This document shows positions 13,546 to 49,208 of a stretch of DNA of 64,000 bases, in pieces. The notes beneath the pieces are model-generated. The model was not told the DNA's origin and did not search any database. It saw only the letters and a program-made list of their open reading frames with translations. Within the stretch, counting starts at the first letter, position 1; each line of letters starts with the position of its first letter. Source of the DNA: Planctomycetota bacterium (GTDB lineage Bacteria; Planctomycetota; Phycisphaerae; Sedimentisphaerales; Anaerohalosphaeraceae). The stretch lies in NCBI GenBank assembly GCA_016873215.1, contig VGXU01000004.1, forward strand, positions 1 through 64,000, in the 5' to 3' direction. The translations under genes were made by a program, and so were the position numbers.

Positions 13546-13617
13546 AGCCAACGGCGGGATTTGAACCCGCAACCCCTGGTTTACAAAACCAGAGCTCTAC
13601 CATTGAGCTACATTGGC
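13546..13617 (-). tRNA. tRNA-Thr (anticodon UGU)
   Basis: The minus strand folds as a 72-nt tRNA. The acceptor stem is GCCAATG/CGTTGGC with discriminator T. A D-arm (AGCTCAATGGTAGAGCT), the anticodon stem-loop CTGGT-TTTGTAA-ACCAG giving anticodon TGT (Thr, reads ACA), and a T-arm with GGTTCAAATCC complete it. CCA is not encoded. It lies just upstream of argB. Confidence 0.96.
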
Positions 13618-13855: not shown

Positions 13856-14428
13856 TTAACCATGGTTCAAAATAAGCTGCAATTGCTGGTCAATAATGGC
13901 AGGACAGGAGAAGGCTGATCCGAGATTTTTTTCCAGCCAGATGCTTCCGAACAAGACACTCAGCAGAATGTCGGCGGAGAGTTTTGCCTGCTCCGGGTTC
14001 AGGCCGCACTGGGCCAGCCAGCTTTCATACAATCCCTCATACCATCGCCAGAAATTCATCAGCCGTTCCTGCAATTCCGGCCCCAGTTGCTGTATCTGTA
14101 CCGACAGCCGGGTAATCAGCCGACAATTGACCCACCGACCGGATTGATTTTTTTCCATCACTATCGTCAACCATTGTTTTAACTGTTCGGCGGGGGGGCG
14201 ATGCCGGTCCACGGTTTCGAGCAATTCCTGATACTCTACGATAACGCTTTCCAGAACGTGCTGACAGAGGTGTTCTTTACTGCGGAAATAATGATAAAAC
14301 GCCCCTTTGGTGATTCCTGTAGCGTCGAGAATATCGTCCAGCGACGTCGCTGTAAAACCATGATTGCTGAACAGGCTTCGAGCGGAAAGCAGGATGCGTG
14401 ATTTAGTCTCTGTGGGGCTTCTGGACAT
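13856..14428 (-). CDS. TetR/AcrR family transcriptional regulator
   Basis: A 190-aa one-component repressor. The N-terminal helix-turn-helix is typical (ILLSARSLFSNHGFTATSLD, then ITKGAFYHYFRSKEHL, about residues 12-52). The C-terminal helical part would bind an unknown ligand. It lies 16 bases after the stop of the Ser/Thr kinase gene, on the same strand, so it is probably in the radical SAM-kinase-TetR transcript and may regulate it. ATG 14428 is used. Confidence 0.9.
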   Translation of the reverse strand: MSRSPTETKSRILLSARSLFSNHGFTATSLDDILDATGITKGAFYHYFRSKEHLCQHVLESVIVEYQELLETVDRHRPPAEQLKQWLTIVMEKNQSGRWVNCRLITRLSVQIQQLGPELQERLMNFWRWYEGLYESWLAQCGLNPEQAKLSADILLSVLFGSIWLEKNLGSAFSCPAIIDQQLQLILNHG

Positions 14429-14444: not shown

Positions 14445-15695
14445 TTATCCGGAGGATTTGGACATCAGCAGAAAAACCACTGTCAGCGCCAATAATGCCG
14501 CCAAGGCTCCGAGGATAATCAAATACATTCGATATTTTGTGATGAGTTCTTCGCTGATTTTGGGTGTCCGGCTTCCCGGCATTTCGATGACGTCGCCGTG
14601 TTCCAGTTCTCCGAGGGCCTCGATATTAAATCGCTGACGGGCAATCAGAGGAGGCTTGCCGTCCCGAACGGCCTGCAAGTCCGCCAGCATCTCGTCCATC
14701 GTTTTATAGCGGTCGTTCCGATTCTTGGCCATCATCACTTCGATGACTTCGGAAATGCCGGCCGACAGCGCTGTGTTAATGTGGTCCGGCGGAATCAGCG
14801 GCTCGTGAAGGTGTTTTTTCATCACATCCGAAGGCGACGTGGCCTCAAAGGGCACCCGGCCGGTGACCATGTGGTACAGTGTACCGCCGAGGGAATAGAT
14901 GTCGGCCCGGCCGTCAATGTCGATGTCGCCGCGGATTTGTTCCGGGGCGATATAATAAGGCGTGCCGAAAGTTTTGCCCTGTTCGTGTTTGGCGGCCTTG
15001 ATATCCGAAGCTTCCCGCGCCAGCCCCATATCGGCCAGTTTGACCACGCCGGCCTTGTTAATCATGATGTTTTTGGGCTTGACGTCGCGGTGAATCAGTC
15101 CCTGGCTATGAGCATGGGCCAGGGCTTTGGCGACCTGGATAATAATATCCAGGGCGTCTTTTTCCGAAAAGACCTTTCCTTTGGACAGGTCGTCGTAGAG
15201 GGTTTTTCCCTCGACATATTCCATTACGAAATAATACAGGCCGCCGACTTCACCTACGTCGATGGCCTGGACGATATTGTTATGGTTGAGTCTGGCGGCC
15301 AATCGGCCTTCTTTGTAAAACCGCTCCACGTAATCCGATTTCTGCACGAATTTTTTGGGTAGTACCTTGATGGCTACGATACGGTCGAGGGAAAGTTGTT
15401 TGGCCTTATAAACCACGGCCATTGCGCCGGAGCCTAACTTACCGAGTACTTTGTACCCCGGAATCTGATTGGTGCTGTCGCGGCTGTCCCGAATAGCGGC
15501 TTTCAGCCGCTCGGCCTGGGTCCGGGTCAAAAACTGTTTTTCCAAAAGCAGTTGTTCGAGGGTAGCCGGTTGCGTCGAAGCCCGTCTTTTCTGTTCGTCC
15601 TCGCATTGTTGCACCTCGTCCTCGGCGCAAAGTTTCTGCTCAATGACCATTCGGCCAAACAGCGTGTCGGCGCTGGTTTGTTCATTGCCGGCCAA
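14445..15695 (-). CDS. Membrane-anchored Ser/Thr protein kinase with N-terminal GspE-like domain
   Basis: A 416-aa Hanks-type kinase. Residues about 10-73 carry two motifs of the LxxxLLExxxLxxxQ kind (FGRMVIEQKLCAEDEVQQC and LEQLLLEKQFLTRTQAERLK) that resemble the N-terminal domain of GspE/PilB ATPases. The kinase domain follows: LGSGAMAVVYKAKQ (ATP loop), AIKVLPK (Lys), HRDVKPKN (catalytic loop), DMGLA in place of DFG, and FGTPYYIAPEQ (activation end). A single transmembrane helix near 390-411 leaves only a few residues beyond it. The start is TTG at 15695, decided by GGGAGG 5 bases upstream. It lies 41 bases after the radical SAM gene and 16 before tetR. Confidence 0.92.
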   Translation of the reverse strand: MAGNEQTSADTLFGRMVIEQKLCAEDEVQQCEDEQKRRASTQPATLEQLLLEKQFLTRTQAERLKAAIRDSRDSTNQIPGYKVLGKLGSGAMAVVYKAKQLSLDRIVAIKVLPKKFVQKSDYVERFYKEGRLAARLNHNNIVQAIDVGEVGGLYYFVMEYVEGKTLYDDLSKGKVFSEKDALDIIIQVAKALAHAHSQGLIHRDVKPKNIMINKAGVVKLADMGLAREASDIKAAKHEQGKTFGTPYYIAPEQIRGDIDIDGRADIYSLGGTLYHMVTGRVPFEATSPSDVMKKHLHEPLIPPDHINTALSAGISEVIEVMMAKNRNDRYKTMDEMLADLQAVRDGKPPLIARQRFNIEALGELEHGDVIEMPGSRTPKISEELITKYRMYLIILGALAALLALTVVFLLMSKSSG

Positions 15696-15736: not shown

Positions 15737-16753
15737 TTATTCCGAATAACATTCCTCTGGAGAGATTATCGGCCAAAAGAGCTTCTTGTCAAAGAAAAAT
15801 CGTCGTAAGTCCGTGCAAAAATGACATTTTGAGGCGTATTGCCCCGGAGAAACATAGCCCGCGGCCTGGGCTTGCCGGAGGAATCCCAAGGGGCCGTCTT
15901 CAACCAGAGTCCGCCAGAAAGGCATCCGGGCGGGGTCAAATTGAGCCCACATCTTGTCCAGCGGTGTTTCTTGAACGTTTCCAACCACAATGCCGCTGCA
16001 CTGCCCGCTGAAGACATTTCCGGCAGGGTCGATATGGACACCTTTGGCCCCCAGAATCTCGGATTTGCAGTTTCGCCCTGAAAATGACTCTGCGGGCCGA
16101 CCGGCCATTAGCCCGGCCAGTCGAAACGCGGCCCGGCCGGTGAAGCGGCAGGCATCCTGCTTAAGGGCCTGATGATAAACTTTGTTTTTTTCCCGGGTTT
16201 CAAGGCCCCGGATTTTCACAGGGGTCTGTAAATATCGCTGCCAGCGAACCAGAACGCGGTTGGAACCGAGGACCTGCTCGGCGATTTCCTTGAGTCGCAA
16301 TACTGTATCAGGACCGATAAATTCCGCGTGAAACACGTCCCAACTGATTTTCAGCTTCTCCAGTCCGTTGGCGTCCAGAAACCTCAGACGGTCTCGGATT
16401 TCCACGGCGTCCGTTGCCCAGGAGGCGTTGGTTTCAATATATTTCAGCCCCTTCAAGCCCTGTCGGTGAGCTTGTTCGACGATTTGGGCCAGGCGGTCAA
16501 AATACAAAAACGGCTCTCCGCCGGTCAGATGGATTTTCGCCCCGTCCCCGGCCAGACGAACCAGTCCTTCCCATGCTCCCAGTGCGGTATCCACGGTCAT
16601 CAGGCCGGTTTTGTTTGGGCCGCAGCAGTAATAACAGAAAGCGCAGGCAGCACTGCACCGCCAGGTAAGCATCAGTCCCGCATCGCGCCACAATTTCAGC
16701 ATGGGCTGGCCGCGGGTACCCCGGCGATTATAGGCATTATCTAAAAGATTCAT
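15737..16753 (-). CDS. Radical SAM protein with SPASM-like C-terminus
   Basis: A 338-aa radical SAM enzyme. The cluster motif is C33-x3-C37-x2-C40 within TWRCSAACAFCYYCC, followed by HLTGGEPFLYF. The C-terminal half has a SPASM/Twitch-like pattern: a Cys in NCKSEILG, GVHIDPAGNVFSGQC, GNVQETPLDKMW, and later KCHFC. Such proteins bind auxiliary iron-sulfur clusters and often modify peptides or proteins. The substrate is unknown. It heads a minus-strand run with the kinase and tetR, and is divergent from a 48-aa protein gene 330 bases away, which could be coincidental. Confidence 0.85.
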   Translation of the reverse strand: MNLLDNAYNRRGTRGQPMLKLWRDAGLMLTWRCSAACAFCYYCCGPNKTGLMTVDTALGAWEGLVRLAGDGAKIHLTGGEPFLYFDRLAQIVEQAHRQGLKGLKYIETNASWATDAVEIRDRLRFLDANGLEKLKISWDVFHAEFIGPDTVLRLKEIAEQVLGSNRVLVRWQRYLQTPVKIRGLETREKNKVYHQALKQDACRFTGRAAFRLAGLMAGRPAESFSGRNCKSEILGAKGVHIDPAGNVFSGQCSGIVVGNVQETPLDKMWAQFDPARMPFWRTLVEDGPLGFLRQAQAAGYVSPGQYASKCHFCTDLRRFFFDKKLFWPIISPEECYSE

Positions 16754-17327: not shown

Positions 17328-18437
17328 TCAGGGGGCGACGGGGGGCTGACCGGCCCGATTTTCCTGCGGAGCTCCTTCAGGATTATTGAGAATCGCCTCT
17401 ATTTCTTCCGTGGATTGAACGGGTGGCGGAAGGTCAGTCAGAGCATTTTGTTTGAACTCCAAAAGCACGGCCTGCTCATTCGTTGGGATATCCTTAAAAA
17501 CAAAATCCACCCAGACGGCTCCCTTGCGGAAATCCGCATTAGAATACGACATCTTGTCCGACAGATTTTTCTGCTGCAGCTTGCCTTTTTCAAGGATACC
17601 GATAGGCCAAACAGCTTTACCATGGCCTCGCAGGTTGTCGGCCTTTTCCCGCGGTTTGGTAATCACGCGAACCTGCGACATCGTAAAAGTAATTCCCTTT
17701 TCGTCTCTTGCCCCGCCGTCAGGGATTTCCTTGGTGGAGATATTGGCGCGGATGACCGTTACGGAGCCAATATCTTTGATCTCCATTGTTCGAACAGGTT
17801 TTTGCTGATTTCCTTTCGGTACCGAGAGGGCTTTTTTGGAACAGATGGTCCATACGCCATCGGTGACGCCATATCGATTCAAATGATTGCGATTAACAAA
17901 ATCAGCACACAAGACGCCGAAGCTGTTGTGGGAACTCAGAGAACCCCGGCTGAACAGCGTGAACAAATTGCTGACTAATCCATCGGGATTGAGAATAGGG
18001 CGATTGGGGTTGTTTAGAGAAATGGGTGCACCCGGAGGAAACCGGTTATAAGCCCATTTTCCTCCCACGGGCAGCATTCCCATCGCCACCAGCAAATGAC
18101 CGGCAAGTATCAGGCCGGTGATGGTGCCCAGGACCAGATTGACTGTGATTTTTGTGGTATTGCCAAAGTCAATATTGGCGCCAACCAGCAAATCCGCCAA
18201 AGCCCGCACGGCCGCAAAGCCCAGCACAAAAGCCAGGACAAAACATCCCGCCGGCGCCCAAGCCCCGTAACCGCGGGAGATGAACAACTCGGACAGCATT
18301 TCATAATAAGTGAAGGCGATGATGGACCCGAAAATGGACGCCATGAATGTTGAAAAAGCCGTCATTGCCGAGCACTTCAGATAAAAATGTGCTATGGTCA
18401 AAATGATGACAATCAGAATAATTGCAATGGTTATCAC
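17328..18437 (-). CDS. CvpA-like membrane protein with soluble C-terminal domain
   Basis: A 369-aa protein. Four hydrophobic segments (about 2-20, 25-45, 60-85 and 100-120) are arranged as in CvpA/colicin V production-family membrane proteins. A non-membrane region of about 240 residues follows and ends in a Pro-rich tail. The soluble part (KDIGSVTVIRANIS, KGAVWVDFVFKD) looks beta-rich and unassigned. The start is GTG at 18437 with AGGAG 7 bases upstream. It is the last gene of a minus-strand set after PilT and the GspE-like pseudo-ATPase, with a 14-base gap to the latter, which suggests a joint membrane function. Confidence 0.75.
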   Translation of the reverse strand: MITIAIILIVIILTIAHFYLKCSAMTAFSTFMASIFGSIIAFTYYEMLSELFISRGYGAWAPAGCFVLAFVLGFAAVRALADLLVGANIDFGNTTKITVNLVLGTITGLILAGHLLVAMGMLPVGGKWAYNRFPPGAPISLNNPNRPILNPDGLVSNLFTLFSRGSLSSHNSFGVLCADFVNRNHLNRYGVTDGVWTICSKKALSVPKGNQQKPVRTMEIKDIGSVTVIRANISTKEIPDGGARDEKGITFTMSQVRVITKPREKADNLRGHGKAVWPIGILEKGKLQQKNLSDKMSYSNADFRKGAVWVDFVFKDIPTNEQAVLLEFKQNALTDLPPPVQSTEEIEAILNNPEGAPQENRAGQPPVAP

Positions 18438-18451
18438 GGTACGACTCCTGT

Positions 18452-20098
18452 TTATCCGGTTTTGGCTGAAAAATTGCGTATCACTTCATTGATCGAAGTA
18501 ATTCCCTGCGTGACCTTTTTAATGGACTGTTCCTGCATATACAGCATCCCGGCCTTGCGAAACGCCGAGGCGATTTCCTGCGTGGTATTGGCGGTTCGAA
18601 TCACCTGCCGCAGGTCGTCGGTGATGCGAATCGTCTCAAACAGTCCGGTTCTTCCGTAAAACCCTGTCCCCTGGCATTTCTGGCAGACAATCGGCTTTCC
18701 ATGTTTGTCATATTCAATTTCACCGGGTCGGTAAAACATATCCACTTGGTCCGACGGGATATTAAATTTCTGGAACAGGGCCTGATTAGGTTTGTAGGCC
18801 TGACGGCAATCATAGCAGAGCTTTCGTGCCAGTCTTTGGTTGATGACGGCTTCGAGCGTTTCGGCCAGGAGGGTTTTGTCTCGAACAAATTGCAGCATCT
18901 TTTCGACGGTTTCCGCGACACTGTTGGCCTGCATGACGGCATAGATGATTTTGCCGTCCTTGATGGCGGAGCAGCAGAGTTTGGCGGATTGTTCGTCTTC
19001 GCAATCGGACACGCCGACAATATCCGGCCCGCGGCGCAGCAGCGACTGGAGCCGACGGGCGTATGTGGTCGTGCCGGTATCACTGAGAGAGTATTCATTC
19101 TGGGTGATATTGGCCAAATCCACCGATTTTTTTCTTTCGAGCGTGTTGATGTTGTTCATAAAGGGGTCGTGATTTGCCAACAGGGTGTAAAGAGTGGTGG
19201 TGATGCCGCTGTGTGTGGGGCCGGAAATCAGAACCAGTCCTGCCTTGATGTCCCGCAGAGAGCGAATCGATTCGAACTGATTGTCATTAAAGCCGAGATC
19301 TTCCAGTTTTCGGCTGCAGTATTCTTCGGCCTTGAACATCTTGATTTGTTCGCCCGCCGTGGAACCGGCCGTTTGTACCTCCCAGGTGACTTTCTTTTTC
19401 CAGTCCTTGTCCCGAAGGACCGTGAATTCACCCTTTTGCGGTTTCCGTTTTTCCTCCGCTTCCAGGTCAGCCAATTGTTTGACGTACCGGACGAGACGTT
19501 CGACTTCTTCTTTGCTTCGTTCATTCTGTCGGCTGCTGACGCCGTCGATTTCATAAATGACCGAGTAAGTGTCTTTTTGAGGGATTAGGGCGATCTGGCT
19601 GACTCGCCGCCAGATCGCGTCGTCAATCAGTTCGCAGACCAGCGTAAACCCCTCCGCATCGGGGCTTTTGGCCTCAGGCAGGGGGACATCATTTTTATTG
19701 GCGGTGACAAAGGACAACCCCCGGCTGACTTTCTGAAGTTTTTTTGCGGGATTGACAAACAGGCCCTTTATATGGTCGGCGGTCAGCACTTTTTCAAATT
19801 CCGCCACCTGGGCGTTACGATGCAGGACATAGGCCATTGCTACCGAACCGACCAGAATGACGTAGATAAAAAATCCAATCCAGAAGACCGGGACAAGCAG
19901 CCAGACCCACAACGCCGCCGCTCCCGTGACCGCGACGGTGCCCGTCCAGACGCGTTTGTTGGTTCGGACGGCCTGACTGTCCATATAAACCCAGTTGACC
20001 AAAGGCATCCAGGTCAAAAACAGCCCCAGTACCATCAGCAGTTTGTACAGAGCGACATATCCGCTGTACTCTACTATCGCCAATAAACTCATTGACAT
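18452..20098 (-). CDS. Membrane-anchored, catalytically degenerate GspE/PilB-like protein
   Basis: A 548-aa relative of type II secretion/type IV pilus assembly ATPases with three N-terminal transmembrane segments (about 14-33, 53-70, 72-92), which normal GspE/PilB lacks. The C-terminal part aligns throughout, but each catalytic motif is lost. Walker A reads GPTHSGITTT (Ile299 in place of Lys). The Asp box TIEDP is TLERK. Walker B DPDIIMIGEIRD is GPDIVGVSDCED. The His box TLHTND is VMQANS. The zinc-binding cysteines are kept (LCYDC about 428-431, CQKC about 472-475). I chose ATG 20098. It follows pilT by 29 bases. It probably has a structural or regulatory role at a pilus or secretion platform. 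Confidence 0.88.
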   Translation of the reverse strand: MSMSLLAIVEYSGYVALYKLLMVLGLFLTWMPLVNWVYMDSQAVRTNKRVWTGTVAVTGAAALWVWLLVPVFWIGFFIYVILVGSVAMAYVLHRNAQVAEFEKVLTADHIKGLFVNPAKKLQKVSRGLSFVTANKNDVPLPEAKSPDAEGFTLVCELIDDAIWRRVSQIALIPQKDTYSVIYEIDGVSSRQNERSKEEVERLVRYVKQLADLEAEEKRKPQKGEFTVLRDKDWKKKVTWEVQTAGSTAGEQIKMFKAEEYCSRKLEDLGFNDNQFESIRSLRDIKAGLVLISGPTHSGITTTLYTLLANHDPFMNNINTLERKKSVDLANITQNEYSLSDTGTTTYARRLQSLLRRGPDIVGVSDCEDEQSAKLCCSAIKDGKIIYAVMQANSVAETVEKMLQFVRDKTLLAETLEAVINQRLARKLCYDCRQAYKPNQALFQKFNIPSDQVDMFYRPGEIEYDKHGKPIVCQKCQGTGFYGRTGLFETIRITDDLRQVIRTANTTQEIASAFRKAGMLYMQEQSIKKVTQGITSINEVIRNFSAKTG

Positions 20099-20127
20099 AT
20101 CTGTTTCCCGTGTAAAATAATTGCGTT

Positions 20128-21264
20128 TTAGAGAATTCCGCCGGACGAAGTGCGAATGCCCTTCATCGCCATTTTCAGTTCTTCGACATTCGGTGCGTGT
20201 TCCATTGCGACCTTCAGGGTCACATATTCTTCCTCCACCAGGATACGCAGGCTTTCGGTAAAGTCCTGCATTCCTTCGCCGGAGCCGGCGCGAATCGCGG
20301 AGGAGATGTCCGCTTCCCGCTGCTCGCTGATCAATTTTCGAATAATCGGGGTGCAAATCATCACTTCCACCGCCGGCACGCGCGGCGTATCCGAGCGAAT
20401 CCCCGGTAAAAGCTGCTGGCTGATAATAGCTCGAATAGTCAGGGCAAATGTAGCCCGAGTCAGTTCACGTTCTTCCGGGGGAAACAAATCAAGGATACGC
20501 TGGATGGTTTGAGAGGCGTTGTTGGCGTGCAGTGTCCCGAAAACCAGATGTCCGGTTTCGGCGGCCCGCATCGCCGCGGTGAGCGTTTCGCGGTCGCGCA
20601 TTTCGCCGACCAGCACGACATCGGGGTCCTGCCGCATCATACTGCGAAGTGCATCCTCGTAGTTCGGAACGTCGATACCGATTTCCCGCTGGGAAACCAT
20701 GGATTTCTGGTCCACGTGCAAAAACTCCAGCGGGTCTTCAATAGTAATAATATGACACGCCCGCGTACGATTGATATAGTCAATCATAGAGGCGATGGTG
20801 GTGCTTTTTCCGCAGCCGGTGGGGCCTACAACCAGAACCATACCGTCGTGAGTGGTGTCGGCGATTTTTTCAACGACCGGCGGCAGATGGAGTTTTTCAA
20901 ACGGCGGAATTTTACTGCTGATTCGCCGGGCAGAGACGCTTACAAAATTCCGCTGCCGGAATGCGTTGATTCGAAAGCGGTCGGCTATCCCGACCTGATA
21001 GGCGAAATCCAGGGCGCCGCGCTCGAAAAAAAACTGCTTTTGCTTGGGACTCATGATTTCAAAAATCAGGTCCTCGATTTTCTGCTCCGTCATAATTTCG
21101 CCGGTGGTTTTTTTCAGCCTGCTGCTGATTCGCATAATCGGAGGCATCCCCATCTTCAGATGCAGGTCGCTGGCCTCGTTCTTGATGGCGGTCTTGAAGT
21201 ACTTATCTATCTCCGGCGTCTTATCGGTATGGACTTGACTGTCTATCGGTTGACCTGTGGTCAT
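20128..21264 (-). CDS. pilT: PilT-family retraction ATPase (first copy)
   Basis: A 378-aa hexameric ATPase of the twitching-motility type. Walker A GPTGCGKSTT, Asp box TIEDPLE, Walker B RQDPDVVLVGEMRD and His box GHLVFGTLHANN are all intact. The PilT-specific AIRNLIRE-like block (PIIRKLISE) and GMQDF near the C-terminus are present. ATG 21264 has AGGAGA upstream. It heads a minus-strand set with the degenerate GspE-like protein and the CvpA-like protein. A second pilT lies in the pil operon at 46923; the two are clearly different paralogues. Confidence 0.93.
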   Translation of the reverse strand: MTTGQPIDSQVHTDKTPEIDKYFKTAIKNEASDLHLKMGMPPIMRISSRLKKTTGEIMTEQKIEDLIFEIMSPKQKQFFFERGALDFAYQVGIADRFRINAFRQRNFVSVSARRISSKIPPFEKLHLPPVVEKIADTTHDGMVLVVGPTGCGKSTTIASMIDYINRTRACHIITIEDPLEFLHVDQKSMVSQREIGIDVPNYEDALRSMMRQDPDVVLVGEMRDRETLTAAMRAAETGHLVFGTLHANNASQTIQRILDLFPPEERELTRATFALTIRAIISQQLLPGIRSDTPRVPAVEVMICTPIIRKLISEQREADISSAIRAGSGEGMQDFTESLRILVEEEYVTLKVAMEHAPNVEELKMAMKGIRTSSGGIL

Positions 21265-21353: not shown

Positions 21354-21381
21354 ATAGTATAATCGGAGGATTATAATACAA
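21354..21381 (-). promoter_or_regulatory. Possible promoter of the pilT set
   Basis: On the minus strand TTGTAT (21376-21381), a 16-base spacer and TACTAT (21354-21359). It lies between mgtE and pilT. Just downstream, at 21308-21330, is a short ccccgtttatgggg hairpin followed by T residues, which would act as a weak terminator of mgtE or an attenuator. Confidence 0.35.
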
Positions 21382-21424
21382 AAACTTGTTTTCGTCAACC
21401 TCCTTGTCTTGCGGTCTCGCATTA

Positions 21425-22903
21425 TTATCGGGCGGTCAAAATGGTCAGCAGCATATAGATAATCACGCTGACGGAGTCATTGGCGGTAGTAACCAGCGGT
21501 CCGGCGCTGATGGCCGGGTCCCATCCGATTCGACGAAACACAAATGGCAGCAGCATACCCAGTGTCGTCGAAACCATAATCGCTGAAAACATCGCTATCC
21601 CCAGGGCCGCGGCAATGCGAAGATGTTGGCCGGGGCGTATTTTTTGAAGAGGGGAAATGGCTTTGGATGGTAAATCAGACGCCGGGACAGCGGTTGTTTG
21701 AACTGTTGCGTTTTTTCCCCTCCAGCCAGCCTCCATCACACGCGGCAAAACACCGCAAATAAGCCCGCCGACCGTTCCGCAGCACAAGGCCACCAATACA
21801 GCCACTCGGACCTCTCGCCAGAAGACCTGTCCTATTCGCAGGGCCGCCATGTCTCCGGTGGCAAGGCCGCAGACAACGACGGCTGAGGTTTGTAGCCCGG
21901 CATTGCCGCTGATAGCCGCTATCATGGGGGCGAATAAAAACGCCGTGATGAAAATTGCAAGCTGGTCCCACTGGGCGAATAAGTTGCGAAAAAACAGACC
22001 CGCCAGGGCGGTAATTGCCGTTCCCAGAAGACATGGCAAAAGCCAGGTCATCCGTACCCTCGCCGTGTGAAGGGCTGAAAAATTTTCCAGTTCCTCTGCG
22101 TCCGTGCCGGCCATGGCATAAATATCTTCAATAGCCTCTTCTTCGGCTGCCTCAATGACGCGGTCGGCGGTGATGCCTCCGACCAGTCGGTGTTCCGCAT
22201 CCACCACGGGGGCGACCAGGAGGTTATTTTTCTTGAATAAATTGCGAATTTCTTCCTGGTGGGTATCGGCCATGACATAGAGGGCGTTCGAGTCCACAAT
22301 TTTTCCCAGCGGCGTCTGCGGTGAACCAATCAAGAGATGGCGTATGCCTACGGTTCCGAGAAATCGCCGCTGCTTGTCCACCACAAAAATACAGTAAAAC
22401 TCCTCTTCCCCTTTGGCCTGACGAATCAAATCAATGGTCTGCTGGATGGTTAAATTTTCCTCCACCGCCAGAATCATCGGCTGCATAATGCCGCCGGCGG
22501 AGTCTTCCTCGTATTTCATCAGCCCCTGAATCTGGCGTGCGTCTTCGTCGTCGAGATTGGCCAGGATTTCCTGACTTTCCTGTTCGTCCATTTCCGCCAG
22601 GACATCCGCCGCCTCGTCTAAGGATAATTCCGAGACTAAGTTGGCGATTTCCTTGTTTTCCAGGACTTCGTCGAACAACTCGGCACGGGTGGCCTCATCG
22701 ACTTTTTCCAGCACTTCCGCGGCCAGTTCCTTGTCGAGAACGTCAAATACCCGGCGTTTTTGGGTGTTATCCAGCAGTTCCACGACTTCGGCGACATAAC
22801 TGCCCCTCTGAAGAGACAAAAACGCCCCCAGCGCACGGAGGTTCTTTTCCTCCAGCATCTCGACCGTCTGTTTGTAGATTTCAAGTTTTTCTTCTTCTAT
22901 CAT
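21425..22903 (-). CDS. mgtE: Magnesium transporter MgtE
   Basis: A 492-aa magnesium channel. In order: acidic MgtE_N superhelix (about 1-130), a CBS-domain pair (about 135-260) that senses intracellular magnesium, a plug helix, then five transmembrane helices (about 285-490). The pore blocks FAPMIAAISGNAGLQTSA and SGPLVTTANDSVSV are visible, the latter with the magnesium-binding Asp. A loop of about 40 polar residues between late helices (around RGKNATVQTTAVPASD) is longer than usual. ATG 22903 (MIEEEKLEIY) is used; the longer frame reads through the promoter. No M-box riboswitch is seen. Confidence 0.95.
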   Translation of the reverse strand: MIEEEKLEIYKQTVEMLEEKNLRALGAFLSLQRGSYVAEVVELLDNTQKRRVFDVLDKELAAEVLEKVDEATRAELFDEVLENKEIANLVSELSLDEAADVLAEMDEQESQEILANLDDEDARQIQGLMKYEEDSAGGIMQPMILAVEENLTIQQTIDLIRQAKGEEEFYCIFVVDKQRRFLGTVGIRHLLIGSPQTPLGKIVDSNALYVMADTHQEEIRNLFKKNNLLVAPVVDAEHRLVGGITADRVIEAAEEEAIEDIYAMAGTDAEELENFSALHTARVRMTWLLPCLLGTAITALAGLFFRNLFAQWDQLAIFITAFLFAPMIAAISGNAGLQTSAVVVCGLATGDMAALRIGQVFWREVRVAVLVALCCGTVGGLICGVLPRVMEAGWRGKNATVQTTAVPASDLPSKAISPLQKIRPGQHLRIAAALGIAMFSAIMVSTTLGMLLPFVFRRIGWDPAISAGPLVTTANDSVSVIIYMLLTILTAR

Positions 22904-22967
22904 AGAAAAAACTCTTCTGAAACCGGAGAAAACACACAGGTTAAAGTCCAAAAGGCCGGTTTTCTGC

Positions 22968-41617: not shown

Positions 41618-42068
41618 TTTTCATCCTTAGATTTACGCTAATGGGTTTTCTTTTCCAGTTTACAGATTATCCGTAAACAGTCAATTTCTTAAATTTTTTG
41701 AAATCTCCGCATTTTTTTATCGGACATAAAAATTTCATACCGGCGCAAGACAATGTATCCCACTCGGGTTTTACAGTCGTCGTCGCTCCGGGTAAGTGTT
41801 TTCCGGGATAGACGAAGGACAAATCATGCCGTCGCAGACGGGTTTTTTATTTATTTATTATCGGACATCTCCGCCATTGTTCGCAAAATTCACGTAATTT
41901 CGTCACGCGGGGGCCTTATTTTTTAGATTTTATATGTCCCGGTCTGCATTTGAGTTAAAAGCCGGACCGCCGGTGTTGGTTATGCGGCCTGGTTTTTCTG
42001 ACGACCTAAGAAACGGAACATAATGTCCCCGGATGCCCCTGACAGGGGCAAAGACAAAACGAATTTTT
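41618..42068. other. Divergent intergenic region, metal lipoprotein / pil operon
   Basis: No gene is seen in these 451 bases. Contents: an inverted repeat gtttac-N9-gtaaac at 41658-41678, 41 bases ahead of the metal lipoprotein and a candidate metalloregulator site; an 11-nt direct repeat ttatcggacat at 41717-41727 and 41858-41868; a small terminator-like hairpin ccgtc-gca-gacgg followed by T6 at 41829-41848; and a 7-bp hairpin tgcccct-gac-aggggca at 42034-42050 just ahead of pilM. Confidence 0.5.
41658..41678. promoter_or_regulatory. Candidate operator upstream of ZnuA-like gene
   Basis: An inverted repeat gtttac (41658-41663) / gtaaac (41673-41678) with a 9-base AT-rich centre, close to the start of the metal-binding lipoprotein. 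The 21-bp dyad is the right size for a Fur/Zur-family site but does not match a consensus I know. Confidence 0.3.
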
Positions 42069-43055
42069 ATGTTGAACTGGTTTGGAAAATATGTTTGTCC
42101 GATCGGAGTCGATCTCGGAAATGGTTTCTTGCGGATGGCTCAGATCGGATTCAACGGCAGCGGGCCGTATCTGCACGCCGCCGGCATTGTCGCGCGCCCG
42201 CAGGGTGTCGAGCCGCAAAGTCCTGCCTGGCAGCGATGGGCAATTGATGCCATTAAAGATTTGCTGCACAAGGGCGATTTCAAAGGCAAAAATGTCATTA
42301 CCGCTCTGGCATCGGAAGATTTATTCATCGAACAAATGAAAGTGCCGCACAATACCGCGGCCAAACTCGACGAGACCGTTTTGCCCCGCATACAAAAAAA
42401 ACTTCCTTTTGCTGTCGAGGAAGGAATGATTCACTGTATTCCCGTTGAAATCGATTCAAATAAGACGACAGAGACGGATGTCATCGTCATTGCCGCCGAG
42501 CGATGCAAGATTGACCGCCATCTGGCCATTTATGAAAATGCTGGACTGGATGTTACCGAAATGAGCATCTGGCCGACGGCTCTAATCAATAGTTACCACC
42601 AGTTTTTCTGCCGGCGAAAAACAGACCAGAGTCGCGTGGCGATTCTCCTTGACGTCGGCAGCCACTCCTGCAATGTAGTTATTGGATGCGGCGGCGAACT
42701 GCTGTTTGCACGCCTCATTCCGACCGGCTACGTCCATTTGAGTCAGGACCAGACCATTCAGCGGCTGATGGCCGAGATCGATTCCTGCTGCCGCTATTTC
42801 GAATCCCTTGCCGGAAAGCGTCCAATTGAACAAATTCTGCTTCTTGTTGGCAAAAATGTCAATAAGGACCTCTGTGATAAAATCGTCGAACTTGCCTGCA
42901 AAATGCAGATACCCGCTCAAATTGGAGATGTTCTCTCGGCTATCCAGGCTCGGCGGGAGGTAACGGGAATGGTGGAGCGGCGAAACAGCAATATCGATTG
43001 GGCCATGGCGTTCGGATTGAGTCTCGAAGGGATGAAAAAAAATGAACATAAATAA
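42069..43055 (+). CDS. pilM: Type IV pilus assembly protein PilM
   Basis: A 328-aa actin-like protein that binds the cytoplasmic tail of PilN on the inner membrane. Actin-fold nucleotide motifs are IGVDLGNGFLRMAQ at the N-terminus, VAILLDVGSHSCNVVI (phosphate 2) and ILLLVGKNVN (adenosine region). ATG 42069 (MLNWFGKYV) is chosen, because the longer frame begins inside a hairpin. First gene of the plus-strand order pilM-N-O-P-B-T-C; pilN follows after 20 bases. Confidence 0.88.
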   Translation: MLNWFGKYVCPIGVDLGNGFLRMAQIGFNGSGPYLHAAGIVARPQGVEPQSPAWQRWAIDAIKDLLHKGDFKGKNVITALASEDLFIEQMKVPHNTAAKLDETVLPRIQKKLPFAVEEGMIHCIPVEIDSNKTTETDVIVIAAERCKIDRHLAIYENAGLDVTEMSIWPTALINSYHQFFCRRKTDQSRVAILLDVGSHSCNVVIGCGGELLFARLIPTGYVHLSQDQTIQRLMAEIDSCCRYFESLAGKRPIEQILLLVGKNVNKDLCDKIVELACKMQIPAQIGDVLSAIQARREVTGMVERRNSNIDWAMAFGLSLEGMKKNEHK

Positions 43056-43075
43056 TCGAAAAAAAGGCGGAATTT

Positions 43076-43798
43076 ATGACAACGATTAATTTCGTTCCTG
43101 ATGATTACATCCAGCAGCGGAAGTCCAGCCGGGCCAATGTGTTGTCTCTGGTTTTGCTGGCGTTTTTGCTCGGAGGAATCGCCGTCACCTTCTCGGTGAT
43201 TAAAATGCGTCAGGCCGTCGTGCGGTCTGAGATGGAACAACTGAACAGCCGGATGGTGCAGGCTCGCGAACAAATCAATCGGCTTGAACAGGTCAAATCG
43301 AAAGGCAGGGTCATGATGAAGAATATGAAAATGACCGCTGACCTTCTGGAGCCGGTTCCACGCAGTGTTGTTCTTGCCTGCCTGACCAATACGATGCCCT
43401 CCGGCGTTTCTCTTCTGGAGATTCAGCTTCAGGAAAAAGAAGTCAAAGTGGCTTTTCCAGCGGTCTCGTCGGTTCAGTCTGTTAAAACGGACACAAAACC
43501 TACACAGTACCAGGCTGCTGCGGCAAAAGATAAAGCCCCCGTCGAATTCAGAACGGTGATTCAGACCCTGCTGGAAATCGAAGGGATTGCACACAGCGAT
43601 ATCGAAGTGGCTTCCTATATTGCCAATCTCAGTGAATCTGTTTTGCTGGATAACGTGCAGTTGGTACAGTCAAAAGAGCAGAACATTGGGGGTGTTCCAT
43701 TCCGTCAGTTTCGACTCCGAACACAGCTTAAACAGAACCTGACGCTTACGAAAGAGGATATCAATAGCATTCGTAAAAAACGGGAACAAACCGGCTAA
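43076..43798 (+). CDS. pilN: Type IV pilus assembly protein PilN-like
   Basis: A 240-aa bitopic membrane protein. It starts with the short cytoplasmic segment TTINFVPDDYIQQRK, a match to the conserved PilN tail INLLPxx that docks into PilM. A transmembrane helix (about 22-40) and a coiled coil (about 42-75) follow, then a periplasmic alpha/beta domain. GGCGGA precedes the ATG. Position between pilM and pilO supports the call. Confidence 0.85.
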   Translation: MTTINFVPDDYIQQRKSSRANVLSLVLLAFLLGGIAVTFSVIKMRQAVVRSEMEQLNSRMVQAREQINRLEQVKSKGRVMMKNMKMTADLLEPVPRSVVLACLTNTMPSGVSLLEIQLQEKEVKVAFPAVSSVQSVKTDTKPTQYQAAAAKDKAPVEFRTVIQTLLEIEGIAHSDIEVASYIANLSESVLLDNVQLVQSKEQNIGGVPFRQFRLRTQLKQNLTLTKEDINSIRKKREQTG

Positions 43799-43828
43799 CG
43801 GTTGTCCGGGAAAGGAAATACGACGAAT

Positions 43829-44365
43829 ATGAACAGTGGAATTCGACATTTTGTTTTCTTCGTTTTAATGATTGGGTTGGCGTATGCTTCCTGGGCGTAT
43901 ATGATTCGCCCTGCCGACGCGGTGCTGGCACAGCAGCGAGCGGCGCTGGAAGAAAAACAGGCCAAACTGGCCGAACTGGACAGTGCCGGCAGTACCGCCA
44001 TGAGTCTCGATGAGCAGATTAAACAGGTGGAGCAGGCCATCCGGAAATTTGAAAGCAAACTGCCTCCCACAAGCCAGATTCACATGGTTCTGGAAAACGT
44101 CACGCTCCTTGCGCAAAAGCACGGGCTGACCCCGAAAACCATCAGTACGCTGAAAACATCTGAAAACAGCGGCTATATCGAACAGCCTCTGAAAATGGAA
44201 TTGCAGGGCGATTTTAACTCCTATTACGCTTTTTTACTTGAACTGGAACGCATGGATCGTATTACCAAAATTCGTGAATTGATGCTCAAGAAAAAAGACA
44301 AATTTGAGGGGCAGGCCGAAGCAACTTTTGTAATGAGTATTTTCTTTATGGATCCAAAGATCTAA
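43829..44365 (+). CDS. pilO: Type IV pilus assembly protein PilO-like
   Basis: A 178-aa bitopic protein with one transmembrane helix (about 6-24), a coiled coil (about 32-75, AQQRAALEEKQAKLAELD) and a periplasmic ferredoxin-like domain (LKMELQGDFNSYYAFLLELE fits PilO). It pairs with PilN to hold the alignment complex. ATG 43829 (MNSGIRHF) is chosen over an upstream TTG, because AAAGGA precedes it and the membrane helix starts just after. Confidence 0.83.
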   Translation: MNSGIRHFVFFVLMIGLAYASWAYMIRPADAVLAQQRAALEEKQAKLAELDSAGSTAMSLDEQIKQVEQAIRKFESKLPPTSQIHMVLENVTLLAQKHGLTPKTISTLKTSENSGYIEQPLKMELQGDFNSYYAFLLELERMDRITKIRELMLKKKDKFEGQAEATFVMSIFFMDPKI

Positions 44366-44386
44366 AAAAGAGAGGAAACTGATATT

Positions 44387-45037
44387 ATGCTTTCGTTCCA
44401 GAAAGAAGAACAAAATGGTCCCGCCGTCAGGGGGACACAAACGCCTGAGGCCCGGCAGGAATCGTCTGCCGCACACAGCGAGGATTATCTGACGGTCGCC
44501 GGCCATAAGAAAAAGCTCAAACAAAGCACCATCATTCTAATCGCGGTGTTTGTCGTCGGAGCGTTTGGCGTCTGGATGATGATTCGAAAAGCCGTCCCTT
44601 CCGCTGCCGCTGCTGCTGCGCAGAAAAAAGATGAAGTGACTGAAATCGAAACAGCCGTCGCTCAGCTCAATGGGATGCAAAGCGAAGTCAGCAGCCAAAT
44701 GAAAAATGTGACTGCGAGACTGAATCATTTGTCCGAAGTGGGACAAATTGCCGTGGAAGATTTGCGGAAAAATCCTTTTGCGCGAGTAAGGCTTGCCGAC
44801 CAGACAAACGCCGATGATCCAATGCAGAAACAATTCGCCGAAGAACAAACGCGGAGAAATGCCGCCGGCCTGCAATTGTGGAGCATTACGGCTTCGCCCG
44901 TCGGCGCATGCTGTATGATTAACGATAAGCTCCTCCATCTGGGGGATAAAATAGAAGGTTTTTCCGTAAGGGAAATCAGAACCGCTTCGGTCATCGTGGA
45001 ACAGAACGGAATAAAGGTGGAGTTAAAATTGGAATAA
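44387..45037 (+). CDS. Pilus assembly PilP-like bitopic protein
   Basis: A 216-aa protein: a polar cytoplasmic N-terminus of about 42 residues, a transmembrane helix (about 46-64), a coiled-coil-like stretch and a small C-terminal beta domain (SVREIRTASVIVEQNGIKVELKLE). It takes the operon position of PilP, but it is a membrane protein rather than a lipoprotein, so it is better seen as a PilP/GspC-type beta-domain protein. GAGGAA precedes the ATG. Its stop codon overlaps the pilB start by 1 base. Confidence 0.72.
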   Translation: MLSFQKEEQNGPAVRGTQTPEARQESSAAHSEDYLTVAGHKKKLKQSTIILIAVFVVGAFGVWMMIRKAVPSAAAAAAQKKDEVTEIETAVAQLNGMQSEVSSQMKNVTARLNHLSEVGQIAVEDLRKNPFARVRLADQTNADDPMQKQFAEEQTRRNAAGLQLWSITASPVGACCMINDKLLHLGDKIEGFSVREIRTASVIVEQNGIKVELKLE

Positions 45038-46881
45038 TGCGGCGATTATTTGGAAAAAAACAGAGGCAGGAAGAGGTCCTCATCTCCTTGGATGAACAGA
45101 TGGGGCTTAGCGATCTGGCGCCGGGGCTGCGAAATCTCTATGCCCCCGAAGCGCAGACTAAAACCCGCATGCGGGATTTGGCGGATATCCTCCTCGAACA
45201 ACAAGTGCTTTCTACTCAGCAGATTGAAACCCTGCGGGCCGAACAGCAGCGCGGCGCTGTCGATATCGAAAAATACCTGCAGAAACTGGGTATTTCTATG
45301 GCGGACGTCCTTGCGGCAAAGGCCCGGCTGTATGGTTTTGAATTCCGCCGAATCACACCCGAAGAAGTCGAAAAAGAAGCCTTCGAAAAACTTGAACTTT
45401 ACTATATTCGCAGCAACCTGATGTTGCCCATCGCCATTAAAGGCGGGGTTTTGATTGTGGGAACCACGGATCCGTCCAATGTGTTCGGCATTGACGATGT
45501 CAAACGGCACGTTGAAATGCCGGTCGATGTGGTCGTCTGCTGTGAGGAGGACATCGTCGCCGTCTGCGACAAATTTGACGAAAGCAAACAAATCAATTAC
45601 GACGTCGATGAAATCATGGGTGATATGGGCGAGATTGAACTGGTCGAAAATGCCGACCAGGTCAACATCGAAGACCTCGAAAAAAGCGCCGGTGAGTCCC
45701 CCGTCATTAAATTTGTCAATTATATGCTCAGCAACGCTCTCCATGAAAGCGCCAGCGATATTCATATTGAACCCAAGGAAAAATATACCCAGATTCGTTA
45801 TCGTGTCGATGGCATACTTTTTGATTCGATGCAGGCGCCGGCCAGAATGCATCCGGCTATTGTCTCACGCCTGAAAATTATGGCCAAGCTTGATATCGCC
45901 GAACGCCGTGTCCCGCAGGATGGCAAAATCGCCGTCATTATGGGCGGGCGAGGCATCGACCTGCGCGTTTCCATTCTGCCCTGCAGCCACGGCGAAAAAG
46001 TCGTCATCCGCCTGCTCGACAGTAAAAGCATTCTGCTGGGTCTGGACCAGAGCGGTATGGAGGCGCGGATTCTCGAAGCATTTCTGCAGCAGGTTAAGAT
46101 GCCGCACGGCATTCTGCTTGTCACCGGACCGACCGGCTCCGGTAAAAGTACCACGCTATACTCGGCCCTGGCGCAGATGGAAAGCAGAACGACCAATATC
46201 TCCACCGTCGAAGACCCTGTCGAATACAACCTCGATTACTGTAACCAGGTTCATGTCAATGAAAAAACAGGTCTCACCTTTGCCGCGGCCCTGCGGAGTC
46301 TGCTGCGGCAGGACCCGGATATTATAATGATCGGCGAAATCCGTGACAACGAAACCGCACGCATCGCCGTCCAGGCGGCCCTGACAGGCCACCTCGTGCT
46401 TTCGACACTGCACACCAACGATGCGCCCAGCAGTATCTCAAGACTCGTCAATATCGGCGTCGAGCCGTATCTAATTGCCGCTTCGCTCAACGCCGTTATC
46501 GCCCAGCGGCTTATCCGCAAAATCTGTACCCATTGCAAGGAACCCTGTCCCGCACCGGACAACCTGCGAAAACATCTGGATAAGGCCGGAATTGACCCTT
46601 CTCAGGTCTTTCACGGAAAAGGCTGCGACCAGTGCAGAAACAGCGGCTACGCCGGCAGAGCCGGTATATTTGAATTGCTTGTCGTGGATGAAAAATTCCG
46701 CGAAATGATTAATACCGATACGTCCGTCTCAAATATGCGCAAGGCATTTATGGCCAGCGGCTGGCCCGGCCTTTTTGAAGACGGTTTGGCCAAGGTCAAG
46801 AAGGGAATAACTACCATTGAAGAAGTTCTTCGCGTTACCGAAGTCTCCGGCGGTCTCGGCGATGATATTCTCAAAAGCTAA
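45037..46881 (+). CDS. pilB: Type IV pilus extension ATPase PilB
   Basis: A 614-aa GspE/PilB ATPase that powers pilin polymerisation. The N-terminal domain (about 45-180) has the LxxxLLExxxLxxxQ pattern (ADILLEQQVLSTQQIETLR). The catalytic domain is intact: Walker A GPTGSGKSTTLY, Asp box TVEDPVEY, Walker B RQDPDIIMIGEIRD, His box GHLVLSTLHTND. A four-Cys zinc site is formed by ICTHC and CDQC late in the protein. It starts on the last base of the preceding stop codon and is followed after 41 bases by pilT. Confidence 0.95.
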   Translation: MRRLFGKKQRQEEVLISLDEQMGLSDLAPGLRNLYAPEAQTKTRMRDLADILLEQQVLSTQQIETLRAEQQRGAVDIEKYLQKLGISMADVLAAKARLYGFEFRRITPEEVEKEAFEKLELYYIRSNLMLPIAIKGGVLIVGTTDPSNVFGIDDVKRHVEMPVDVVVCCEEDIVAVCDKFDESKQINYDVDEIMGDMGEIELVENADQVNIEDLEKSAGESPVIKFVNYMLSNALHESASDIHIEPKEKYTQIRYRVDGILFDSMQAPARMHPAIVSRLKIMAKLDIAERRVPQDGKIAVIMGGRGIDLRVSILPCSHGEKVVIRLLDSKSILLGLDQSGMEARILEAFLQQVKMPHGILLVTGPTGSGKSTTLYSALAQMESRTTNISTVEDPVEYNLDYCNQVHVNEKTGLTFAAALRSLLRQDPDIIMIGEIRDNETARIAVQAALTGHLVLSTLHTNDAPSSISRLVNIGVEPYLIAASLNAVIAQRLIRKICTHCKEPCPAPDNLRKHLDKAGIDPSQVFHGKGCDQCRNSGYAGRAGIFELLVVDEKFREMINTDTSVSNMRKAFMASGWPGLFEDGLAKVKKGITTIEEVLRVTEVSGGLGDDILKS

Positions 46882-46922
46882 CCTCAGATAGATAAAATGA
46901 TGCTATCAGGAAGGAAACAGTC

Positions 46923-48029
46923 ATGTTTGACATAAAACAGATTTTGATGGAGGCTGTTCAGAAGGGTGCGTCCGATGTGCATATCAATACCGAAATGCCC
47001 CCGATTATGCGTATCAATACTGAATTGGTTGCGATGGAACTGCCTGAAGTGGACCCCGAATCCGCCCGGCAAATAGTGTTGCAGATGGTCAGCGAAGAAA
47101 AATACAAAGTCTTCGAGAAAAATCGCGACCTCGATTTTTCCACAATGATTGAAGACGGCAGCCGTTTTCGCGTCAACGCCCACTGGCAGAGAGATAACAT
47201 CGCGATTTCCTTTCGTGCGATTTCCAGCCGTATTCCCGACATTGACGAACTGCACCTGCCGCCCATCGTCAAGGAATTAACGGACCTGCCGCGCGGCCTC
47301 GTCCTGGTCACTGGACACACCGGCTCGGGGAAGAGTACCTCCCTGGCGGCGATGATTAACATCATCAACCGCAAATACCATCGTCGTATTATCACCCTTG
47401 AGGATCCTGTGGAATATATGATCAAAAACAAGTCCTGTATGGTCGAGCAGCGTGAAATCGGCTCGGATTGCACCTCCTTCGCCTCAGGCCTCAGGCATGT
47501 CCTCCGGCAGGACCCCGACGTGATTCTCGTCGGTGAAATGCGAGACCTCGAAACCACCAGTTCAACTATCACTGCCGCGGAAACCGGACATCTGGTCTTA
47601 AGCACGCTGCACACCATCAACGCCTCTCAGACCGTGGAGCGTATCATTGATGTTTATCCCGCCGCTCAGCAGAATCAGATTCGGGCGATGCTTTCCAACA
47701 CCCTCCAGGCCGTTGTTTCACAGACTCTTTTCAAGAGAGTCGATCAGCCCGGAATGGTGCCCTGCGTGGAAATCCTGCTCTGCACGTCCGCCGTACGCAA
47801 CTGCATTCGGGAAAACCGGATTTACGAGATTCCCAATATTATTGAGACATCCCGCAGGGTCGGCATGCAGACCATGGACTTCAGTATCCAGCAAATGTAC
47901 ACCGCTGGCTACATCGACCGCAGTGAAGCCATCCTGCGCGCCAGCAATCCCGGCAAGATGGAACGTCTTTTAGCTCCCGCCCCAGGTCAGAAACAGCCGT
48001 CCGAAATGGTCAGCGCCGCAACAGAATAA
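46923..48029 (+). CDS. pilT: PilT-family retraction ATPase (second copy)
   Basis: A 368-aa pilus retraction ATPase with intact motifs: Walker A GHTGSGKST, Asp box TLEDPVEYM, Walker B RQDPDVILVGEMRD, His box GHLVLSTLHTIN. The C-terminal SAVRNCIRENRIYEI corresponds to the AIRNLIRE motif. AGGAAA precedes the ATG. It sits between pilB and pilC, the usual place for the motility motor. It is a paralogue of the copy at 20128. Confidence 0.94.
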   Translation: MFDIKQILMEAVQKGASDVHINTEMPPIMRINTELVAMELPEVDPESARQIVLQMVSEEKYKVFEKNRDLDFSTMIEDGSRFRVNAHWQRDNIAISFRAISSRIPDIDELHLPPIVKELTDLPRGLVLVTGHTGSGKSTSLAAMINIINRKYHRRIITLEDPVEYMIKNKSCMVEQREIGSDCTSFASGLRHVLRQDPDVILVGEMRDLETTSSTITAAETGHLVLSTLHTINASQTVERIIDVYPAAQQNQIRAMLSNTLQAVVSQTLFKRVDQPGMVPCVEILLCTSAVRNCIRENRIYEIPNIIETSRRVGMQTMDFSIQQMYTAGYIDRSEAILRASNPGKMERLLAPAPGQKQPSEMVSAATE

Positions 48030-48062
48030 GAAGCCGCAACAGAATAAGAAAAGGGAAAAATT

Positions 48063-49208
48063 ATGGCTCTGTTTACGTCACAGTCAACAGCGAAAAGTGC
48101 CCCTGCGGCGGCCCATTCCGGCCGCCAACCGCAGTGGCAGGGTGTCAATATTTCTTTCGATTTCGGACCGAGTAAAAAAGACATCCTCAACTTTACCAAT
48201 CAGTTGGCCGTTATGGTGCGTGCCGGAATCAGTCTTCAGGATGCGCTGGAATCCATCGGAAACCAGATTCCAAAACAAAAATTCCGTGCCGTCGTTCTCG
48301 ACCTCAAAAGTCAGATTGAAGGCGGCGAATGTTTTTCACGGGCGCTGGCACGTTATCCCGATATCTTCGGCAATCTCTACGTAAATATGATTGCTGCCGC
48401 CGAAATCTCAGGCTCAATGAGCGCCATGCTGCAGCAGCTCGTCGCGTATCTCGACCAGGAATCCGAAACACGCAGTCAAATCATCGGGGCAATGGTCTAT
48501 CCTGCCATTATCGCCACCATGGCGGTATCCTGCGTCACGTTCCTGCTGATATTTGTACTGCCGCGTTTTCTGCTCGTTTTCGCCGGTAAGGAAGACCTCC
48601 TGCCGGCCCCAACAAAACTGATTATGGCCCTCAGCGGAGGGTTGCGCCATTACTGGTTTATTATTTTTCCTGCTATTGCCGCCGTCATTCTGGGGTTCTG
48701 GTATCTCACGCACAGAACCGACGCCGGAAAATTCTGGTGGGACAAAATTAAGCTGCGCATCCCATTGCTGGGGACACTGTGCCGCAGTTTATACATTACG
48801 CGCAGTATGCACACGATGGGTGTCCTGACCAACGCCGGCGTGCCGATTCTCGATACCATTTCCATCACGGCGCTTATTTCCGGAAACATTCTTTATGAAA
48901 GAATGTGGAGGGGCGTTCACGAAGCCGTCCGGCAGGGTAAAAAAATCGCCGTCAGTCTGGCCGAATACGATCTCATGCCCTCCAATGTCGTACAGATGAT
49001 TCAGTCCGGCGAAGAATCGGGGTCCCTCGGCGAAGTTCTCAAGGATATTGCCGAGTTCTACGCCCGCCAGCTCAGGACGGTCATTAAAGCCGCTACCAGT
49101 ATGATTGAACCGCTGATGATTGTTATGATGGGCGTTCTCGTCGGATTTATCGCCATGAGTATCATTTTGCCCATTTTCAAAATGTCCAGCGTCGTCACCA
49201 GCGGCTAA
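48063..49208 (+). CDS. pilC: Type IV pilus inner-membrane platform protein PilC
   Basis: A 381-aa polytopic protein of the T2SSF/PilC family that forms the rotor above the PilB and PilT motors. Two T2SSF helical domains are seen (about 35-160 and 235-360; conserved GGECFSRALARYPDIFGNLYVNMI and MIQSGEESGSLGEVL, quoted in part), with membrane segments near 150-170, 200-215 and 355-375. AAGGGA precedes the ATG. The tail end of the operon (two pseudopilins) follows after 22 bases. Confidence 0.94.
   Translation: MALFTSQSTAKSAPAAAHSGRQPQWQGVNISFDFGPSKKDILNFTNQLAVMVRAGISLQDALESIGNQIPKQKFRAVVLDLKSQIEGGECFSRALARYPDIFGNLYVNMIAAAEISGSMSAMLQQLVAYLDQESETRSQIIGAMVYPAIIATMAVSCVTFLLIFVLPRFLLVFAGKEDLLPAPTKLIMALSGGLRHYWFIIFPAIAAVILGFWYLTHRTDAGKFWWDKIKLRIPLLGTLCRSLYITRSMHTMGVLTNAGVPILDTISITALISGNILYERMWRGVHEAVRQGKKIAVSLAEYDLMPSNVVQMIQSGEESGSLGEVLKDIAEFYARQLRTVIKAATSMIEPLMIVMMGVLVGFIAMSIILPIFKMSSVVTSG

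Follow-up and report, generated by a model that had tools for sequence, protein, structure and literature searches.

The assembly ATPases of type IV pili and type II secretion, PilB and GspE, share an N2E-CTE fold and a tetra-cysteine zinc site; in PilB, magnesium is coordinated by the glutamate of the Asp box, and R271 and R286 are the arginine fingers (PMC5424180). In the PilT/PilU pair of type IVa pili an intact PilT is joined by a second, related member of the ATPase family, PilU, a retraction ATPase that depends on PilT (PMC6762196). The four-helix membrane domain of CvpA/Colicin_V (PF02674) belongs to a protein that, in enteric bacteria, has been tied to bile-salt resistance and not to a motor (PMC6705877). 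Here a three-gene locus is described, encoding a PilT-type ATPase, a membrane-anchored and catalytically degenerate relative of GspE (pseudo-GspE) and a CvpA-like protein, which lies at positions 17,328 to 21,264 of a 64,000-nucleotide stretch of a Planctomycetota bacterium (assembly GCA_016873215.1, contig VGXU01000004.1, positions 1 to 64,000 of the forward strand; this whole stretch is called the window). The trio is conserved throughout the class to which the window belongs, and its order recurs in other Planctomycetota, which suggests a motor complex of the cell envelope that has not been described; literature searches on PilT together with CvpA, and on pseudo-ATPases within the GspE/PilB family, turned up no description of such a trio system. 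The genes are as follows.

20128-21264, minus strand: pilT, PilT/PilU-family ATPase of 378 amino acids, above the TIGR01420 cut-off, motifs intact
18452-20098, minus strand: membrane-anchored pseudo-GspE of 548 amino acids, ATG at 20098; PF00437 match, catalytic residues lost, PilB/GspE fold in the model
17328-18437, minus strand: CvpA-like protein of 369 amino acids; in the model four helices, then a C-terminal domain rich in beta structure (about residues 151-335)

An earlier reading made from the DNA letters without database searches (the sequence-only reading) had reported three minus-strand genes separated by 29 and 14 bases, and the coordinates bear this out. It had also aligned the middle protein with GspE/PilB along its C-terminal 300 residues; the homology holds, but the aligned region begins earlier, since PF00437 (T2SSE) matches residues 153-541 (E 3.8e-57), a span that includes both the N2E and the CTE domains of GspE/PilB. 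The protein lies far below the equivalog cut-offs of the family, scoring 219 of 676 bits against TIGR02538 and 217 of 630 bits against TIGR02533, and no N1/MshEN domain was detected by the Pfam scan, in which only PF00437 exceeded its cut-off. In an AlphaFold2 model built from 28 sequences (predicted local distance difference test, pLDDT, 82) the soluble part resembles the PilB/GspE structures 5oiu, 5tsh and 4ksr (Foldseek E 1.7e-34, target-normalised template modelling score, TMt, 0.90). The trio, like the PilT/PilU pair, joins an intact PilT to a second ATPase-family protein, but this partner is of the GspE type, membrane-anchored and degenerate; it shares the fold and the zinc site of PilB/GspE, and differs from them in its three N-terminal membrane helices and in the loss of catalytic residues and arginine fingers. 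The relevant segments of the protein are listed below.

19808-20050, minus strand: three predicted transmembrane helices, residues 17-97 (AlphaFold2), conserved in 28 orthologues
19193-19222, minus strand: Walker A remnant GPTHSGITTT, residues 293-302, Lys replaced by Ile (motif reading)
19130-19144, minus strand: Asp box remnant TLERK, residues 319-323, Asp lost, Glu321 invariant in the 28 aligned orthologues
18995-19030, minus strand: Walker B region GPDIVGVSDCED, residues 357-368, glutamate of VGE lost (motif reading)
18920-18937, minus strand: His box remnant VMQANS, residues 388-393 (motif reading)
18674-18817, minus strand: tetra-cysteine zinc site, CxxC at 428/431 and 472/475, all four Cys invariant in 28 orthologues

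The four degenerate motifs read exactly as the sequence-only reading had quoted them: the window protein is without the Walker A Lys, the catalytic Glu after Walker B and the His of the His box. Retention of the zinc cysteines, likewise noted there, was found to be complete, with Cys428, Cys431, Cys472 and Cys475 unchanged across the 28 full-length middle proteins that were aligned. These proteins are 50-76% identical to that of the window and have many invariant residues, among which are also the P-loop glycines, Thr300 and Glu321. The three membrane segments claimed for the N-terminus correspond in the model to predicted helices at residues 17-44, 48-68 and 72-97. Since signal-peptide-like N-termini precede helix 1 in the 18 homologues listed from other lineages, and since the first loop and the stretch following helix 3 hold basic residues, the combined evidence indicates a topology in which the N-terminus would lie outside, followed by three helices and a cytosolic ATPase domain.

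Loss of the catalytic residues extends to a total of 58 degenerate proteins, comprising 34 of the window clade, 18 from other families of the class and 6 from f72/f81/f98. The Walker A Lys is absent from 57 of the 58 and the His-box His from all of them, the Asp-box Asp is retained in only six, and the catalytic-Glu column holds a Glu in ten, without the canonical motif around it. The arginine-finger columns are those that the alignment places in the DLRVS and VV-LR segments; their 15-residue spacing matches that of R271/R286 of PilB (PMC5424180); Arg is kept in these columns in 3/58 and 2/58 degenerate proteins, and both are kept in 26/26 intact or canonical rows. The Walker A Lys, the Asp-box Glu, the catalytic Glu, the His and both Arg are present without exception in 18 relatives and in eight canonical paralogues from the window genome. 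In the window's class, pseudo-GspE most probably has no ATP hydrolysis of its own and no arginine fingers to offer a neighbour. A mixed catalytic ring, with pseudo-GspE as a catalytic subunit, was also considered and is unlikely because both trans arginine fingers are lost. The middle gene is under purifying selection: in six pairs the ratio of nonsynonymous to synonymous substitution rates (dN/dS) was 0.025-0.165, of the same order as for pilT, with some dS values near saturation. The 58 degenerate proteins and these ratios uphold the view, put forward from the letters, of a conserved pseudoenzyme and not a decaying gene. Orthologues are present in other genomes. Intact motifs, which the sequence-only reading had named as a sign of simple decay, do occur in relatives from another lineage, but the conservation of the dead form across the class argues otherwise.

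The distribution of the locus was examined at several depths. When GTDB contigs were scanned with the window protein as query, a search that picks up close relatives only, 29 loci were obtained, all in records labelled as planctomycete groups; the order pilT, GspE-like gene, CvpA gene was found in 25 of them, and three others end at a contig edge. The CvpA gene adjoins the GspE-like gene in all 29 loci and in 37 of 40 broader loci (L068-L107), and pilT adjoins it in 33 of these 40. A profile of the membrane domain only gave matches in 66 of 392 phylum genomes, and a broader membrane-domain profile (A5) in 84/392, with exactly one match in each of the 41 sampled genomes of the window's class (41/41); these are domain matches, and neighbouring genes or motifs were inspected in 29 of these 41. 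As the pattern recurs in dozens of genomes, the trio arrangement is not due to chance. The search that the sequence-only reading had proposed, for membrane-fused GspE-like proteins without the Walker A Lys, found them, with pilT and a CvpA-like gene lastingly co-occurring at their loci. Adjacent pilT genes were present at 54/55 informative degenerate loci versus 5/12 intact loci; as the rows are related, these are plain counts and no statistical test. An either-or arrangement, in which a dead GspE would occur only beside PilT and an active GspE would replace PilT, was rejected, because genomes without an adjacent pilT still hold an orthologous PilT; in each such f31 genome it lies elsewhere, in several of them 11-12 kb off. 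In the metagenome-assembled genome QNBT010, the pseudo-GspE and CvpA genes were observed in two copies on two contigs (L026, L027).

The PilT of the trio scores 419 bits against the TIGR01420 cut-off of 319, and Walker A, Asp box and Walker B are intact in all full-length adjacent copies compared. It belongs to a separate ancient clade; the genome has two further PilTs, which fall outside this clade. PilT-like matches in G227 and G389 (L134, L137) contain an in-frame TGA.

The CvpA-like protein of the window gave no Pfam match of its own. PF02674 matches 25 of the 26 members of the CvpA-like alignment (best 2.2e-07), and four distant relatives (L068, L083, L084, L090) exceed its cut-off of 29.3 bits; membership in CvpA/Colicin_V is thereby confirmed in relatives and is assigned to the window protein by its homology to them. 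Its model (pLDDT 87, predicted template modelling score, pTM, 0.84) shows four helices, in common with CvpA/Colicin_V, fused to a beta-rich C-terminal domain in which it differs from that family, and Foldseek found no significant match to the model in the PDB. Protein size is mostly about 185-270 amino acids in intact-type lineages and 530-780 in other families of the class, a variation that points to the four-helix part as the common core. At L084-L100, which belong to these other families, the CvpA protein has a C-terminal part of ~400 residues, and in those scanned the Colicin_V domain at the N-terminus was the sole Pfam match.

Membrane-anchored GspE relatives with all motifs intact were found in the Planctomycetota families f31, f38, f99 and f100. 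They have the same membrane domain and the same gene order with CvpA as the window protein, with a PilT gene either next to them or at another genomic position, and differ from it in their intact catalytic motifs. The presence of this membrane domain with intact motifs in another lineage implies that the window pseudoenzyme derives from an active membrane-anchored ATPase, and the ancestral state was most likely such an ATPase accompanied by PilT and CvpA. In a tree of the middle protein computed with the motif columns removed, f72/f81/f98 group with the intact f31 lineage, apart from the window's class, a placement that requires two losses. The approximately unbiased (AU) test on this tree does not exclude a single loss (p-AU 0.36), whereas the tree of the adjacent PilT, which serves as an independent marker, rejects a single origin of the dead form (p-AU 0.00015). 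The dead form probably arose twice, if the operon has been inherited as a unit.

Features outside the trio that bear on its interpretation are the following.

21370-21398, minus strand: possible pilT promoter, TTGACG-17-TATAAT, 11/12; a weak candidate from a consensus scan only, the site count being barely above that of shuffles
15737-16753, minus strand: radical SAM protein downstream of the trio (Pfam), homologues in 17 relative loci
14445-15695, minus strand: Ser/Thr kinase downstream of the trio (Pfam), homologues in 17 relative loci
13856-14428, minus strand: TetR-like regulator downstream of the trio, homologues in 11 relative loci
42033-49205: type IV pilus core cluster of PilM, PilN, PilO, an unknown protein, PilB (MshEN), PilT and PilC

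The radical SAM, kinase and TetR-like homologues mostly keep their order and strand in the relative loci. Upstream of pilT, 21425-22960 on the minus strand encodes an MgtE-type divalent cation transporter, also found in 11 relative loci. The Rfam scan of the locus gave no RNA besides a nearby tRNA gene (13546-13617, minus strand, RF00005). A protein with a weak N-methylation motif comes after the PilC of the pilus cluster.

Several explanations of the trio were weighed. The trio could be an ordinary type IV pilus accessory, its PilT an extra retraction motor and pseudo-GspE an extra platform or brake at the PilC base, in a PilT/PilU-like manner; the known dependence of PilU on PilT (PMC6762196) would fit, and so would the occurrence of pilus genes, as 388/392 genomes of the phylum have PilM and all 36 GspE-like-positive genomes tested have PilC-type proteins. 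For the same reason, co-occurrence failed as a means to separate the trio from type IV pili, PilM and PilC being near universal. This role is nonetheless unlikely, as no pilin, PilC, PilM, PilN or PilO gene adjoins the trio in the window, the window's own pilus cluster at 42-49 kb has, as the sequence-only reading had observed, its own PilB, PilT and PilC, the PilT of the trio forms a separate clade, and no functional link between CvpA and PilT was found in the literature searched; the first three of these points favour a separate device. A pseudo-PilB that acts as a nucleotide sensor or signaller, binding nucleotide or staying nucleotide-free and informing regulators such as the downstream kinase of the state of the motor or of energy status, rather than docking PilT, is quite unlikely. 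It is consistent with the retained P-loop Gly/Thr and Asp-box Glu, with the kinase gene conserved downstream in many relatives and with the ATPase-dead PilB (K327A) of Myxococcus xanthus, which still signals exopolysaccharide production (PMC5544727), but most of the loci at which the kinase neighbourhood was found belong to the lineage of the window, the trio has a much broader distribution, and neither the Lys nor arginine fingers are left to read phosphate.

Frozen linkage of three functionally unrelated genes could account for two loci without a detectable CvpA (L072 and L102) and for the relocation of pilT in several f31 genomes; it is improbable, as the order persists between divergent lineages whose middle proteins are only about 25-30% identical and whose flanking genes change. 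Neutral decay of a redundant GspE copy would agree with the degeneration of all four motifs and with the many other GspE/PilB copies in the window genome, but a single copy has been kept over the whole class with invariant blocks, and decay, refuted by low dN/dS, intact frames and class-wide conservation, is extremely improbable. The dead form has been conserved between an intact PilT and CvpA, which is best explained if the middle protein has a structural role, and an envelope complex, with pseudo-GspE as a dead membrane dock for a dedicated PilT and CvpA as a membrane or periplasmic partner, presumably in contact with one another, is given somewhat less than an even chance. Several observations weigh against this complex. 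At the degenerate locus L026 the 3.6 kb of upstream sequence that the contig offers contain no pilT, and seven intact-type f31 loci are without an adjacent pilT. All trio genomes tested carry PilC-type and PilM-type genes, and ordinary pili could be all that the PilT of the trio works for. One orthologue (L014:664-2304) has a Walker A Lys (GTPKSGKTST), with Asp box, Walker B and His box degenerate. Most P-loop Gly/Thr residues are kept in the degenerate proteins, as is the Asp-box Glu in 57/58 of them, and nucleotide binding may remain; the earlier description of the protein as fixed was accordingly too strong.

In the envelope complex proposed here, the three genes would encode a single assembly whose proteins may be in physical contact. 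The middle protein would descend from an active membrane-anchored ATPase of the GspE/PilB type in which three N-terminal helices replace the usual N1/MshEN, and in the window's class it would have become a pseudoenzyme with the N2E-CTE architecture and zinc site retained, serving as membrane dock, adaptor or coupling ring for the dedicated PilT. PilT, as a putative hexamer, would supply ATP-driven motion, and the four-helix membrane part of the CvpA-like protein, with the predicted periplasmic beta domain in this class, could be a platform or channel through which this motion takes effect. In a more specific version, which is possible but doubtful, Planctomycetota would have an envelope machine without pilins, its PilT hexamer driving CvpA by way of a membrane-anchored GspE-like ring, formerly a second motor and converted at least twice into a dead coupling ring.

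The locus offers a natural experiment on pilus-type motors, with the active form in one lineage and a degenerate form, which probably arose twice, beside an intact PilT, and it makes testable whether ATPases of the GspE/PilB type can serve as pure scaffolds. The widespread membrane protein CvpA, whose function is unclear, gains a candidate mechanical partner, and because none of the sampled genomes of the class lacks the membrane domain, an important role in the cell envelope of planctomycetes is implied.

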